Shown here: one piece after another, positions 32,470 to 38,092 of the stretch
Layout of the letters: each line of letters opens with the position of its first letter
How positions within the stretch are numbered: position 1 is the stretch's first letter
Source: Candidatus Accumulibacter conexus
GTDB lineage: Bacteria > Pseudomonadota > Gammaproteobacteria > Burkholderiales > Rhodocyclaceae
NCBI GenBank assembly: GCA_017592775.1
Contig: JAGFNJ010000051.1
Span: 1 to 38,092 of the forward strand
Direction of reading: 5' to 3'
Length of the DNA stretch: 38,092 nucleotides
The notes under the pieces: model-generated
The model's input: only the letters and a program-made list of their open reading frames with translations
What the model was told of the DNA's origin: nothing
Databases searched by the model: none
Program-made: the position numbers and the translations under genes

Positions 32470-35400
32470 TCAGGCATACACCCCCGCGTTCCGCTCCGGG
32501 TAGCTCTCATACACGTGCTCGAACACCGCCGAGCATTTCTGGATGTAAAGCTCCTTCGAGAACGCACGCGGCAGACCTCTGTCGAGGGTGTCTTCGATGG
32601 CCAGCTTCAACTGTGAGCGTGCCGCCGATTTCTGCCGCCAGTTCAACACCAACAGCCCCTTGAGCCTGGCCAGCAGTTCGCGGGCAGCCTTCTTTACCTC
32701 GGCCCGTTCCTCTGGCGACAGTTCCGGCGCTGGCCGCGTCAGGATGTCGAAAATGACCAGCTCTTCCTCGCTCATGTTCTCACGCACATGGCGTTCCTGC
32801 TCGTCGTTCAGGCTGTTCGACAGCTTCACCAGTTCGTCGAACAGTTCCTCGATGCTGCGGCTGCCGGCGTTGTAGCTTTCGATCAGCGCCTCGAACTTTT
32901 CGGCGAAGTCGGCGCGGGTGCGGTTCAACCGGATCATCTTTTCCAGTTGGGCGCGGATCGCGGCCTTGAGCACTTCGAGGTCGGTGTTCCTGTGCTTCGA
33001 TTCCTTGAAGCGTCGGGCCAGCGCCTCGAAGTTGATCTTCGACAGGTCGAGCGCCGGCGGCCCGGATTCGCGGACTTCGTGGCCGGTGATGGATTCGTCG
33101 AGCAGGCCGTTGATCTGGCCCATCACCTGCGAAACATCCGGCGGGTTCGGGTTGAGCCTGGCGCGGATGGCGTCGGCCAGCGTCGTCAGGCAGGCGACGC
33201 GGCTGGCGAATTCCAGCGCCGACGGGTCGGGCTTCACCGCACGGTAAAGCGTGCTCACCAGCCGCTCATAGGCAAGGAAATCGCGGCGCAGCGGGTCGGG
33301 CGAGATCAACGCGTTGATACCGTCCTCGATGCGCGACAGGCGCTCCATGCTGCCGACAGGTGTCGCCTCGATCTCGCCCAGCAACACCTTCTTCGCGGCG
33401 CAGAAGGCCGTGGCATCGCCCACCGACTGGCGCAATTCCTCGACCAGTTGCTGCTTGTCCTTGACCGGCTTCTTGCCGCCCTTGCCCGCCCCGTAGATCG
33501 CCAGCGCCTTCTCCAGCGAGGCGAAGACGTTGGCGTAATCGACGATGACGCCGCTGTGCTTGCCGGGGAAGACCCGGTTGGCGCGGGCGATGGTCTGCAT
33601 CAGCGTGTGATTGCGCATCGGCTTGTCGAGATACACCGTCGAGCAGCTCGGCGCGTCGAAACCGGTCAGCCACATGGCACAGACGAAGACCAGGCGCAGC
33701 TTGTCCTCGGTGTCCTTGAACTTCTCGTCCAGCCCCGGCTGCGATTCATTCATGCGCTTGCGGTGCGGCTCGATGTCGAGACCCAGCGTTTGCATCTGGG
33801 CGATTTCGTTCTGCCCCGGCGAGACGATCACCGCCATGTCGGTCGTCGTCAGCACATCAAGACGCGCCTTCAGTTCAGCCCTGCGCGCATCACGCCGTGC
33901 CTGTTCGGGCGCCATCTCTCCGCCGCGCGGCTGGTAAGCCAGCTCGCCCAGTTCCTGTTGCACCCGTGCCGTTTCCGCCGCCCAATGCACCTTCAGCTTG
34001 TCGTACATGCGCAGTGCGGTGGCCTTGTCGATCGACACCACCATCGCCTTGCCGACAAAGCCCCGGCCGAGGAAGTGCCGCACGATGTCCTTCGCCACGG
34101 TTTCCAGACGGTCATCGCGGGTGATCAGGTGGTATTGCCGCCCCAGCACCTTCTCCAGCTTGGCCTCCTGATCGGCGTCGAGGTCGGCATCCTCGATCAG
34201 GCGGTAGATGTCCTCGTTGAGATCGGGATTGACGAGCTGCAACTCCGGCGTGCGGTTCTCGTAGAACAGCGGCACGGTGGCACCATCCTCGATGGACTGC
34301 TGGAAATCGTAGATCGAGACGTAGTCGCCGAAGACTTCCCTGGTGCGCTCTTCGCCGGCAATCAGCGGCGTTCCGGTAAAGGCCAGGAACATCGCCCTGG
34401 GCAGCGCGGCGCGCATGTTGAGCGCCAGGGTGTCGTACTGGCTGCGGTGCGCCTCGTCGGTCAGCACGATCACATCGGAACGGTCGCACAACAGTTCCGG
34501 CGTCTGGAACTTGTGCACCAGCGTGAACACGTAGCGGTGGTTGCCCCGCAGCAGTTCGCGCAGGTGGGCGCCGCTGGACGCGTGGCACGCGTCGCCCTCG
34601 GCCTCGCTCACCGCACCGGTGGTCTTGAACGTCTTGGCGATCTGCTCGTCCAGCTCGACGCGGTCGGTGACGACGACGAACGTCCAGTTGCCGGCGAGCT
34701 TCCTCAGCACCTTCTGCGCGAAGAACACCATCGAGAAGCTCTTGCCGCTTCCCTGCGTTTGCCAGAACACGCCGCCGCGCCCGTGGCCCAGCTTGCGGGC
34801 TTCGAGCATCGAGGCGATGGCATTATTGACGCCGAGGAACTGGTGGTTCTGGCCGAGAATCTTGACCAGCCCGGCCTTGTGTTCGGAAAACAGCGTGAAG
34901 TTCTCGACCAGATCGAGCAGGCGGGTGCGGTCGCAGGTACCGCGCAGCATCACTTCCAGCGACACGCGGCGCGCTTCGTCCTCGCGCTCGATACGTTTCC
35001 ATTCCACCCAGCGGCCCCAGTCGGCGGTGAGCGAGCCGACGCGGCTGTCGGTGCCGTTGCTGGCGATGAGCAGCGCGTTGCTCCAGAACAGCGCCGGAAT
35101 CTGCTGCCTGTAGTGGGTCAGGTTTTCGTCGAAGGCGGCGCGCGCCGGAACGCCGGGCTTCTTGAGTTCGATCACCACCCAGGGCAGGCCATTGACGAAG
35201 CCGACCAGGTCGGGCCGGCAGGTGTAGAGCGCGCCGGTCACGCTGAACTGGCTGACCAGCAGGAAGTCGTTGTTCTCCGCTTGCTCCCAATCGACCACGC
35301 GCAGGCGTTCGGTCTTTTGGCCGCCGTGTTCCTTATCAGGGACGGACACCGTGATGCCTTCCTTGAGCAGCCGATAGACTTCGCGGTTGGCCGCTTCCAG

Positions 35401-35658
35401 GCTCATCGTCGAGCGGTCGCGGGTCAGTTCATCGACTGCGTTGCTGATTGCCTCCGGCGGCAGCTTCGGGTTGAACCTGACCAAGGCGGCGCGCAGTCGC
35501 TCGACCAGCACCACCTCTCCCTTGGTTTCGCGGCCAAGCAAACCGCCCGCGCCGAAGGATTCTTCCAAGGCCGACACCGTCTGCCAGCCGAGTTCGGCAA
35601 ACAAGCCGATGGCGGGTTGCTCGACGAGTTGGTCTTCCGAGTAGGCTTGGGCGTTCAT
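32470..35658 (-). CDS. hsdR: Type I restriction endonuclease subunit R
   Basis: The 1062-residue motor and nuclease subunit works in the HsdR2M2S complex, translocating DNA and cutting far from the site. The N-terminal PD-(D/E)xK nuclease is visible as RPDLVGFVNGLPWVVIELKK (Asp then Glu-x-Lys) near residues 150-170. The superfamily 2 motor has Walker A QTQGSGKS near residue 301, DEAH in LTDEAHRSQYD near residue 400, and motif VI-like QTIARANRVFPGK. The C-terminal helical domain runs from about residue 800. It has no frame break, so it appears intact. It overlaps the nucleotidyltransferase gene by four bases (ATGA), so it is translated from the same mRNA. Confidence 0.95.
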   Translation of the reverse strand: MNAQAYSEDQLVEQPAIGLFAELGWQTVSALEESFGAGGLLGRETKGEVVLVERLRAALVRFNPKLPPEAISNAVDELTRDRSTMSLEAANREVYRLLKEGITVSVPDKEHGGQKTERLRVVDWEQAENNDFLLVSQFSVTGALYTCRPDLVGFVNGLPWVVIELKKPGVPARAAFDENLTHYRQQIPALFWSNALLIASNGTDSRVGSLTADWGRWVEWKRIEREDEARRVSLEVMLRGTCDRTRLLDLVENFTLFSEHKAGLVKILGQNHQFLGVNNAIASMLEARKLGHGRGGVFWQTQGSGKSFSMVFFAQKVLRKLAGNWTFVVVTDRVELDEQIAKTFKTTGAVSEAEGDACHASSGAHLRELLRGNHRYVFTLVHKFQTPELLCDRSDVIVLTDEAHRSQYDTLALNMRAALPRAMFLAFTGTPLIAGEERTREVFGDYVSIYDFQQSIEDGATVPLFYENRTPELQLVNPDLNEDIYRLIEDADLDADQEAKLEKVLGRQYHLITRDDRLETVAKDIVRHFLGRGFVGKAMVVSIDKATALRMYDKLKVHWAAETARVQQELGELAYQPRGGEMAPEQARRDARRAELKARLDVLTTTDMAVIVSPGQNEIAQMQTLGLDIEPHRKRMNESQPGLDEKFKDTEDKLRLVFVCAMWLTGFDAPSCSTVYLDKPMRNHTLMQTIARANRVFPGKHSGVIVDYANVFASLEKALAIYGAGKGGKKPVKDKQQLVEELRQSVGDATAFCAAKKVLLGEIEATPVGSMERLSRIEDGINALISPDPLRRDFLAYERLVSTLYRAVKPDPSALEFASRVACLTTLADAIRARLNPNPPDVSQVMGQINGLLDESITGHEVRESGPPALDLSKINFEALARRFKESKHRNTDLEVLKAAIRAQLEKMIRLNRTRADFAEKFEALIESYNAGSRSIEELFDELVKLSNSLNDEQERHVRENMSEEELVIFDILTRPAPELSPEERAEVKKAARELLARLKGLLVLNWRQKSAARSQLKLAIEDTLDRGLPRAFSKELYIQKCSAVFEHVYESYPERNAGVYA

Positions 35659-36365
35659 GATGAATCCAGCCCGGCAATGCCGTGCAGTTTTTCCAGTAAC
35701 TCCGGCAAGCGTTCCTGGCTCGCCGGATCGCCTGGTAAATGGCCCGGCAATGCATCCGTGAACGCCGGCTGTGCCAACAATGCCTGAAACCGCTCAGCCA
35801 GATAAGCCTTCAGATCCCGCGGGCTGGCCCGGCACTCTTCCAGCAATACATCCCTGCCATCGACGACCGCGAGCAAGTCGCCGAGATCGTGGCTGAACAG
35901 AAAGTCGCCCTGGCCGCGGCCATCGAACGCCTCCAGCTTGGTGGCCAAAAACACCGGCGCCGTAAGCAGGCGGATCGGATGACCGCTGGGCAGCGTCACA
36001 GTCACCGCCGTTTCCAACGCCAGCGGATACCAGCGATTGGCAAAACCGAGCACCTCTTTCAGTGGCGGCATGACGTCGACCACCACCGAAGCGATCTGCC
36101 ACCGACAAATCGGCGCCTGCGGGCGCATGTCCTGCACAAAGCCTCTTGTGCGCAAGGCTTTCTCAACGCGGTGATAGTCGGCAAGCACCACAGCCTGACA
36201 CAGCAGATCAACGTCCTCGGTGGGCCGGATCGCCGGCATGGCCGGGTCGGTAATCAGCAACCCCGCTACCGCACCGCCGACAAAGACCGTTTCGTCGCGC
36301 AAATCATCACCCAAGCGTTCAGCGACCACCTCCAGCAAGACGACGTTGGGATCGTTGGCGTTCAT
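35655..36365 (-). CDS. Nucleotidyltransferase-fold protein (AbiEii/MNT-like), possible toxin
   Basis: The protein has 236 residues, with ATG at 36365. The nucleotidyltransferase signature is FVGGAVAGLL (Gly30-Gly31) followed by RPTEDVDLL with acidic D51 and D53, the metal-binding pair. A third acidic residue may lie in VVVDVMPP near residue 100. KLEAFDGRGQGDFLFSHDLGDLLAVVDGR, quoted here by its start KLEAFDGRG, resembles the C-terminal region of AbiEii-like proteins. It overlaps the winged-helix gene by four bases on one side and hsdR by four on the other. AbiEii-type toxins pair with a winged-helix antitoxin, which the upstream gene could be. A toxin function is inference; the pair has no name that I know. 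Confidence 0.7.
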   Translation of the reverse strand: MNANDPNVVLLEVVAERLGDDLRDETVFVGGAVAGLLITDPAMPAIRPTEDVDLLCQAVVLADYHRVEKALRTRGFVQDMRPQAPICRWQIASVVVDVMPPLKEVLGFANRWYPLALETAVTVTLPSGHPIRLLTAPVFLATKLEAFDGRGQGDFLFSHDLGDLLAVVDGRDVLLEECRASPRDLKAYLAERFQALLAQPAFTDALPGHLPGDPASQERLPELLEKLHGIAGLDSS

Positions 36366-36907
36366 GCCTGCAAGCGCTTTTCCAGCAGATCGATCGCCAG
36401 CGCCCGTTCGCGGGCGCTGCCGCCGCGCACCGCATCGAACAGTACCAGCAGTTCGCCAAGCGCCGGGTTGCGCCCGGCCGCCTCCGGCACGCTCGGGTAG
36501 AGCGGATAAAAGGCCATGCCGCGCACCGTGCCGTTCTTGTGCGGCCACACCGGCACCGGGTCGGTACCCGGCACGATCAAATCCTTGAGCGGCGCCGCCG
36601 CATAGCCGGTCGGCCGGCCGCGCGTCAGGCTGCCCCGGACGGCCGGAAAACAGTAGCGCGCCCCATGCTGAACAAACAGGCGCAAGGCGGCCAGGATCAC
36701 CGTCGCCTTGCCGCCCACATCCTTGTGCGCAAGCTGCGCGGCGACGGCCCGGTCCACGGCACCATGAATCTCCGACGCCGTCATGCCCAGCTCGGCCGCC
36801 AGGGCCGCATAGGTGGGCGCCGGGCCACGTTCCAGCGCCAGGCGCAGCAGGACCACCAAGTCTTGCGGGCGCAATACGATCTGCGGATTCGATTTCTGGC
36901 GCGGCAT
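36362..36907 (-). CDS. Winged-helix protein paired with the nucleotidyltransferase, possible antitoxin/regulator
   Basis: The protein has 181 residues, with AAGGAG 7 bases before the ATG. Residues of about 12-60 form a helix-turn-helix (LRPQDLVVLLRLAL, then YAALAAELGMTASEIHGAVDRA). The middle region (RYCFPAVRGSLTRGRPTGYAAAPL) recalls the domain after the DNA-binding part in AbiEi-like proteins, and the C-terminus is an acidic helix. It overlaps the nucleotidyltransferase start by four bases, as in many toxin-antitoxin operons with the regulator first. A 24-bp palindrome covers its promoter, which supports autoregulation. The family is not recognised with certainty. Confidence 0.7.
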   Translation of the reverse strand: MPRQKSNPQIVLRPQDLVVLLRLALERGPAPTYAALAAELGMTASEIHGAVDRAVAAQLAHKDVGGKATVILAALRLFVQHGARYCFPAVRGSLTRGRPTGYAAAPLKDLIVPGTDPVPVWPHKNGTVRGMAFYPLYPSVPEAAGRNPALGELLVLFDAVRGGSARERALAIDLLEKRLQA

Positions 36908-36921
36908 CGTCCGGCTCCTTC

Positions 36922-36945
36922 ATTCGCTATTCGCGAATAGCGAAT
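36922..36945. promoter_or_regulatory. Perfect 24-bp palindrome, candidate operator of the winged-helix gene
   Basis: The half-site ATTCGCTATTCG (36922-36933) is followed at once by its exact reverse complement (36934-36945). It covers the predicted transcription start and touches the -10 box on the minus strand, 15 bases upstream of the winged-helix ATG. The inner part contains two copies of TTCG/CGAA in each orientation, so a dimer or a pair of dimers could bind. Confidence 0.85.
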
Positions 36946-36971
36946 ATATGCACACGGAAAGTTGCTGTCAA
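36943..36971 (-). promoter_or_regulatory. Sigma70-type promoter of the winged-helix/NTase/hsdR operon
   Basis: On the minus strand TTGACA (36966-36971) and TATATT (36943-36948) are separated by exactly 17 bases. The -35 box is perfect and the -10 box matches at five of six positions. The palindrome at 36922-36945 overlaps the -10 box by three bases, the classical position for a repressor. Confidence 0.8.
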
Positions 36972-37033
36972 TGCCGACACGTGGGCCGCGCCTGGCAGAT
37001 GTCTACGAAAACTTAAACAGATTAGTAGAAATG

Positions 37034-37922
<889 letters not shown>

Positions 37923-37952
37923 CTTAGGCGTTAAGCAAAAATAACTTGAACA
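37923..37952 (+). repeat. Left terminal inverted repeat of a second ISAzo13-like copy
   Basis: It matches the reverse complement of 99-128 at 25 of 30 positions, with 20 consecutive identities (37933-37952). It forms the edge of the hsdS truncation: the HsdS frame runs into a TAA at 37931-37933 within the repeat. The transposase start follows at 37981. Confidence 0.85.
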
Positions 37953-37980
37953 TTTGTGATGATTAGCCTATGGTTTCAGC

Positions 37981-38092
37981 ATGGAGCAGGAGTTAGCCAT
38001 AGAAGCTAAGTATCAAGCGCTGTGTGGAAGGCTGGATGAGGCCACGCTTCGCCTTTGGGCGGCGACGGAGGCACGAAGCCTGGGGCGTGGTG
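37981..38092 (+). CDS. ISAzo13-like transposase, N-terminal fragment (runs off the right edge)
   Basis: ATG at 37981 opens 37 codons that stay open to the window end. The segment LDEATLRLWAATEARSLGRG matches, as I recall, the conserved N-terminus of ISAzo13-family transposases (LDERTRRLWAAAEA..LG.GG). An earlier ATG at 37970 is in another frame and stops after eight codons. With the matching C-terminus at the left window edge, it shows that at least two copies of the same IS, in the same orientation, border this segment. Confidence 0.75.
   Translation, partial: MEQELAIEAKYQALCGRLDEATLRLWAATEARSLGRG

Follow-up and report, generated by a model that had tools for sequence, protein, structure and literature searches.

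What does a gene pair resembling a toxin-antitoxin module do inside a type I restriction operon? The question is raised by a contig of Candidatus Accumulibacter conexus, of which positions 1-38,092, read on the forward strand, form the stretch of DNA analyzed here (the window). On its minus strand, a 181-residue winged-helix protein (WH; 36362..36907) and a 236-residue nucleotidyltransferase (NT; 35655..36365) are encoded between hsdS and hsdR. We lean toward reading WH and NT as the A-B core of PDC-M21, a candidate defense system in the PADLOC collection, and thus as an AbiE/MenT-like toxin-antitoxin or abortive-infection module whose promoter would also serve hsdR, in a two-stage defense. 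WH is the predicted autorepressor and antitoxin, NT the predicted MenT/AbiEii-like toxin.

Layout, promoter-like site, and predicted operator

The genes are tightly packed. ATGA overlaps of 4 nt form both junctions, WH/NT at 36362-36365 and NT/hsdR at 35655-35658, the NT stop overlapping the hsdR start codon by 4 nt; hsdR itself (32470..35658, minus strand) encodes an intact 1062-residue type I restriction subunit (TIGR00348, 2e-140; HSDR_N and SWI2_SNF2 domains). A promoter scan placed a -35 box TTGACA at 36966..36971 and a -10 box TATATT at 36943..36948, both on the minus strand and separated by a 17-nt spacer. This is the single promoter-like site in 36700-38092, where shuffled sequence would be expected to yield 0.3; it matches at 11 of 12 positions. 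Simple scans of 35600-38092 found no further promoter-like site and no terminator-like site. By eye, AAGGAG (36915..36920, minus strand) resembles a ribosome-binding site 7 nt ahead of the WH start. The original prediction for this locus, which had described genes of 181 and 236 residues overlapping each other and hsdR by four bases behind a perfect -35, 17-base spacing, and a good -10, is thus borne out by the open reading frame (ORF) coordinates and the scan. Because the module lies between hsdS and hsdR and overlaps the latter, its promoter would also become one for hsdR.

The predicted WH operator is a perfect 24-bp palindrome, ATTCGCTATTCGCGAATAGCGAAT (36922..36945). Of the -10 box it takes in just the final 3 bases, from which it continues across the start region; the -35 box lies outside it. 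The palindrome of the original prediction stands, but its cover extends to only the end of the -10 and not to the promoter as a whole. The 24-mer is the sole match in the 4.87-Mb genome even with up to 3 mismatches allowed.

Relatives of the pair were surveyed at 90 loci (given L-numbers), namely the window, 26 near relatives, and 63 loci from taxonomic draws and plasmids. The draws contributed 28 of the 31 other matches in the class (369 genomes), 24 of 28 in the phylum (398 genomes), and 4 of 4 in the family (61 genomes); the NT fragments L056, L135, L137, L138, L140, and L141 and two class matches lacking a locus stand outside the survey. The pair was found in 115 of 72,556 plasmid records, of which 7 were picked by eye for spread. 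WH stands directly upstream of NT in 89 of the 90 loci, the contig of the remaining one (L005) beginning inside NT.

In 43 of 88 loci, a palindrome scoring at least 8 directly precedes WH, a threshold reached by 8 of 880 shuffles and by 27 of 850 stretches from other parts of these loci; with a smaller set of loci the three counts had been 35 of 61, 10 of 610, and 13 of 577. The count omits L019, where upstream sequence is lacking, and L005, which has no WH on its contig, and it uses script-set start codons, mis-set ones costing some sites (by eye, for example, in L163 and L168). The exact 24-mer of the window recurs in L002, L003, L004, L006, L007, L008, L012, and L017, several of which show by eye a TTGCC-type box 17 nt ahead of TATATT. 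Elsewhere the motif varies among clades while keeping its dyad symmetry, with TTCGCGAA, GTCC, and ATATGCATAT types distinguished by eye. L006 has this same operator amid sugar-nucleotide and sugar-phosphate genes, and no hsd gene was found on its surveyed stretch; the predicted operator therefore appears to belong to the pair and to travel with it.

Association with type I restriction operons

Type I hsd genes are linked to the pair in 22 of the 90 loci, a raw frequency within this survey. The 22 were hand-picked and include the remnants L007, L008, and L017, as well as L085; six more loci with weak or more distant hsd matches (L074, L079, L086, L091, L165, and L167) were not counted as linked. 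The order hsdM-hsdS-WH-NT-hsdR is found in L004, L012 (both with broken reading frames), L095, and L172, and the window has the same order without hsdM. L095 and L172 group with L162, for which no hsd link was found, in a clade of the NT tree that is separate and well supported. L002-L005 and L095 share the 4-nt overlap of NT and hsdR.

Other arrangements also occur. The pair precedes hsdR (of EcoEI type), hsdM, and hsdS in L016, and an EcoEI-type hsdR lies near it in L009; it stands between hsdR and hsdM-hsdS in L163 and L168, the latter with a PP2C-like gene after NT; it follows hsdM-hsdS..hsdR in L023 and hsdM in L094; and it precedes hsdM in L076, L161, and L083, with hsdR and hsdS upstream in the last. 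Of the hsd matches within 5 kb, the window's own excluded, 54 are on the strand of the pair and 1 is opposite, a count summed over strata in which matches of one operon are not independent. In L085 (9759-10760), hsdM is followed by an Mrr-type endonuclease gene and then by WH-NT, so that a restriction gene of a different type neighbors the pair.

When hsd linkage is mapped onto a maximum-likelihood tree of 83 NTs, 12 changes are required, at least 9 of which well-supported branches make unavoidable; all 500 shuffles needed more (mean 18.2). Seven of the 90 rows, shorter than 170 residues, are not on this tree (L012, L021, L027, L093, L167, L173, and L176), the hsd-linked L012 and L173 among them. 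With 12 changes against a shuffle mean of 18.2, and at least 9 forced, the hsd link is clustered and yet has changed many times. The survey called for in the original prediction thus did not find homologues only as isolated neighbors: hsd genes are linked repeatedly, and hsdS-WH-NT-hsdR occurs in two distant clades. That relatives of the pair repeatedly joined type I operons suggests, without proving, that the two defenses work together.

In this genome, however, the restriction system itself is in poor condition. Only the 3' part of hsdS is present (37034..37922, minus strand; Methylase_S, 4.2e-21), its 5' part having been lost at the junction, at about 37923, with the left end of an insertion sequence (37923..38092, plus strand) that interrupts the gene and ends the contig; the specificity gene is broken, as the original prediction had it. 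This end is repeated at 9 places in the genome, the present one included, 7 of them at contig ends. The ORF starting within it resembles transposases of ISAzo13 type, and its 37 residues have no match in Pfam. A search of the genome for the missing half of hsdS gave a weak match on contig C101, beside a copy of the insertion sequence and, judged from its coordinates, on the wrong side of the element for the lost half. No close cognate hsdM was found in the genome either: its best HsdM is 42% identical to that of L062, whereas four relatives have HsdM pieces sharing 74-90% identity with one another. An intact set of hsdM, hsdS, and hsdR was thus not found here. Given the cut hsdS and the lack of a matching hsdM among the contigs, host restriction has probably been lost while hsdR and the two genes of the pair remain whole, although an assembly gap is possible; with restriction probably broken, only the pair is likely to act in this genome.

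The two proteins, their nearest known systems, and third genes

WH and NT match parts A (PDC-M21A, 9.4e-36) and B (PDC-M21B, 3.8e-66), respectively, of the PADLOC system. In NT, the GG...DxD core named in the original prediction is present as GG (30-31) and D51-V-D53, with R47 and T49 ahead of the latter. Across 22 aligned NT rows, GG, R47, T49, D51, D53, D97, K143, D160, and D163 are invariant, and all 83 NTs of the tree have Thr at position D-2 and Arg at D-4 of the catalytic DxD. Motifs I-III of AbiEii (hG[G/S], DhD with Arg, and KLxAaxxR) correspond to GG30-31, to R47 with D51xD53, and to K143-L-E-A-F-D-G-R150, and a relaxed pattern for motif III is matched by 81 of 83 NTs. Of motif IV (+DxxD), the DxxD is present, and the residue before it is His in 69 of 83 sequences, Arg or Lys in 11, and another in 3. 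The AbiEii family PF08843 is matched at E<=0.1 by 13 of the 22 aligned NT sequences (best 6e-8). The predicted NT fold is nearest to MenT1, then to TglT/MenT3 and JHP933, and is of the MenT/AbiEii nucleotidyltransferase kind.

WH is classed as a winged helix by fold only: its model has a pLDDT (predicted local distance difference test) of 92, and winged-helix folds match over residues ~9-88. That fold search was filled by the winged-helix part and has no bearing on the C-terminal domain, which is without an assigned fold; a profile search of PDB sequences with WH gave weak matches only (best 0.076). AbiEi chains are not among the best 50 fold matches listed for WH, which excludes nothing. A search of NCBIfam at E<=1 assigned neither WH nor NT to a family.

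The ratio of nonsynonymous to synonymous change (dN/dS) is 0.07-0.17 for WH and NT in 12 comparisons with six relatives and 0.08-0.14 for hsdR with three relatives. Such values point to selection acting over a long past and are not evidence of function today. In all six pairings of the window with L002-L004 and of these with each other, synonymous change at shared fourfold sites is higher in NT (0.37-0.47) than in WH (0.18-0.33) or hsdR (0.24-0.30), and the GC content at third codon positions in the same four loci is lower (0.69-0.76 vs 0.81-0.87); an older exchange of NT alone is possible.

The likeness to AbiE (PMC3985639) lies in a bicistron with a winged-helix regulator first and an overlapping nucleotidyltransferase second. 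The pair differs from AbiE in the spacing of GG and DxD (19 in NT vs the 15 given for AbiEii), in having one palindrome where AbiE has two repeats, and in its Pfam profile results, with WH lacking an AbiEi match and NT falling below the AbiEii cut-off. Of the AbiE-like pair in the original prediction, therefore, the layout, the AbiEii motifs, and the recurring operator-like palindrome stand, whereas strict membership in AbiE is not supported by Pfam profile searches. The best fold match leads to MenAT (MenT1 and MenT3/TglT; PMC11375011). NT shares with MenT1 a Thr at D-2 of the catalytic Asp, corresponding to T39 and D41, and T39 is the MenT1 autophosphorylation site. In sequence NT is remote from MenT1 (22-24% over the aligned part), and MenAT1 is reported to lack transcriptional autoregulation, whereas an operator-like palindrome is present here.

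From these likenesses a mechanism can be proposed. WH would bind the palindrome over the -10 end and the start region and repress the WH-NT-hsdR transcript, and would keep NT inactive, probably as MenA does MenT, by binding it and by driving phosphorylation of T49 (D-2). Free NT, to judge from its fold and motifs, would add nucleotides to RNA, most likely tRNA, and growth would stop. Loss or capture of WH during infection would then let toxin and restriction subunit rise together.

Two-stage defenses of this kind have precedents in DarTG2 under RptR and in PrrC of EcoprrI. In PMC12255303, DarTG2 is likewise a toxin-antitoxin pair between hsdS and hsdR, and the repressor sites overlap the -10. 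RptR, however, is a 79-residue helical protein encoded at the operon head and acting at 6-bp palindromes, compared with the 181-residue winged-helix WH and its 24-bp site, and here repression would fall to the predicted antitoxin, a member of the inserted pair. PrrC (PMC12707154) is a translation-blocking toxin whose gene lies inside a type I locus and acts as guardian of restriction; for NT only the embedded position is seen. PrrC is a nuclease activated upon inhibition of EcoPrrI.

What follows NT in other loci bears on how the toxin might be controlled. A predicted phosphatase is the third gene in 11 of 90 loci and is drawn from two unrelated folds: a PP2C-like gene overlaps or abuts NT in one NT clade (L097, L098, L099, L100, L164, L165, L166, and L168; 8 of 90), and a calcineurin-like phosphoesterase does so in another (L087, L088, and L089; 3 of 90). 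Pfam searches with 7 of the PP2C-like genes gave 2 matches above the curated cut-off (L099 and L100) and 5 below; the call for L168 rests on an in-house profile that contained L168. The third genes of L164 and L099 match PADLOC PDC-M21C with E-values of 1e-84 or better, so that the PP2C-like part C follows NT there, where the window has hsdR; the metallophosphatase of L088 has no PADLOC match.

According to PMC11375011, a phosphate on the Thr or Ser at D-2 inhibits MenT toxins. Set beside a phosphatase as third gene, this suggests removal of the phosphate as an arming step, and by analogy the third gene hints at a phospho-switch on the D-2 Thr of NT, a Thr in 83 of 83 sequences. A wider proposal, which we regard as rather unlikely, would make WH-NT a movable, phospho-switched core that takes varied partners: the PP2C-like enzyme or metallophosphatase would strip the WH-driven inhibitory phosphate from the D-2 Thr of NT and so arm the toxin, and in type I operons hsdR or hsdM would take the third place, the WH operator would switch restriction, and loss of WH would fire translation arrest and restriction together. 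Full-text literature searches found no paper joining AbiE-type terms with PP2C and no paper for "PDC-M21", and a narrow one found no report of MenT-like toxins re-armed by dephosphorylation.

Competing explanations and what the locus means

Several observations weigh against the reading of WH-NT as a PDC-M21 core that also controls hsdR. Most loci, 68 of 90, are not counted as hsd-linked. Within the 56 taxonomic-draw loci, 7 have an hsd match within 500 bp, two of them weak (L091, 32 bits; L173, 35 bits, with a strong hsdM farther up), and 13 have one within 5 kb, three of them weak (L091, L165, and L167). In the phylum and family draws, only 8 of 28 loci have an upstream palindrome that reaches the threshold. 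NT scores 15.6 bits against PF08843, below the cut-off of 22.5, and no AbiEi model is among the 17 Pfam families matched at E<=0.1 by 25 WH members. The phosphatase third gene is absent from the window, hsdR following NT instead, and the pair persists beside a restriction system that is probably dead.

The hsdS-hsdR interval, moreover, takes up other genes. The class draw's top 12 HsdR relatives, leaving out the window's own, come from genomes without an NT match in that draw; 11 of them have hsdS and hsdR both on the stretch, and 8 of these 11 hold other cargo in between: DUF6932 with HTH_17/PIN_3 in L062 (whose HsdR is 77% identical to that of the window), PIN_3 on the other strand in L063 (88% identical over residues 4-826), IrrE with DUF4411 in L064, Schlafen AlbA_2 in L067, Fic in L068, HTH_17 in L069, HicAB with a weak PIN piece in L070, and ABC-3C-like, RhuM-Fic, and AAA_14/DUF4143 genes in L073. 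No cargo was seen in L066, L071, or L072. The other type I system of this same genome (contig C34; L190, 2031-11306) carries the Gabija genes GajA (2e-235) and GajB (6e-192) between hsdS and hsdR, together with a RhuM-like PDC-S23 gene and, by eye, an apparent HsdR N-terminal remnant.

With unrelated cargo in 8 of 11 relatives, the place may be a mere hotspot, and the slot was already known, since PMC12255303 reports DarTG2 there under the repressor RptR and terms the site a potential recombination hotspot. On the strength of this cargo and of the published parallel, a serious rival, and one that we think quite possible though somewhat less than even, is that WH-NT forms a toxin-antitoxin or addiction module in its own right, a passenger that lands in this interval as many others do and whose overlap with hsdR only preserves hsdR expression and serves no joint function. 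The many loci without an hsd link, the plasmid occurrences, and the Gabija genes of the sister system all fit such a passenger. It accounts less well for the other places that the pair takes in hsd operons (hsdR-pair-hsdM-hsdS in L163 and L168, pair-hsdR-hsdM-hsdS in L016, and hsdR-pair in L023), for its lying nearly always on the hsd strand, and for the retention of the NT/hsdR overlap in L002-L005 and, far off in the tree, L095. The coupling may be a product of selection or a side effect of insertion at a hotspot.

It is improbable, in our estimate, that NT is no toxin and serves instead to mark RNA or protein in an immune or housekeeping role, WH being a plain regulator. Least probable is the timing device entertained in the original prediction, in which WH, like type II C proteins, would hold back hsdR until methylation is in place: hsdR is indeed preceded by a regulator-like gene and a palindrome, probably on the same transcript, but the palindrome overlaps the -10 end and start region as expected of a repressor site, a promoter under negative autoregulation is freest where the repressor is absent and would give a naive cell an early burst of hsdR and not a delay, and the same operator occurs in L006, where no hsd gene was found, so that regulatory logic and operator distribution together disfavor it.

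The original prediction had taken integration with hsdR as the new part; the pairing as such is not new, as PADLOC lists PDC-M21A and PDC-M21B and DarTG2 between hsdS and hsdR under RptR is published (PMC12255303), whereas the recurrent link to hsd genes holds up. What is new here, in a system of an otherwise known kind, is that hsdR stands where the phosphatase would follow the listed PDC-M21 A-B parts, and that these parts have entered type I operons repeatedly.

RptR is one recent answer to the questions of how type I restriction is controlled and why toxin-antitoxin systems gather between hsdS and hsdR. A toxin-antitoxin module of the kind described would bring along its own hsdR promoter, which makes the question testable by a single operator mutation, and the phosphatase third gene of its relatives offers a direct test of whether MenT-like toxins can be re-armed by dephosphorylation.

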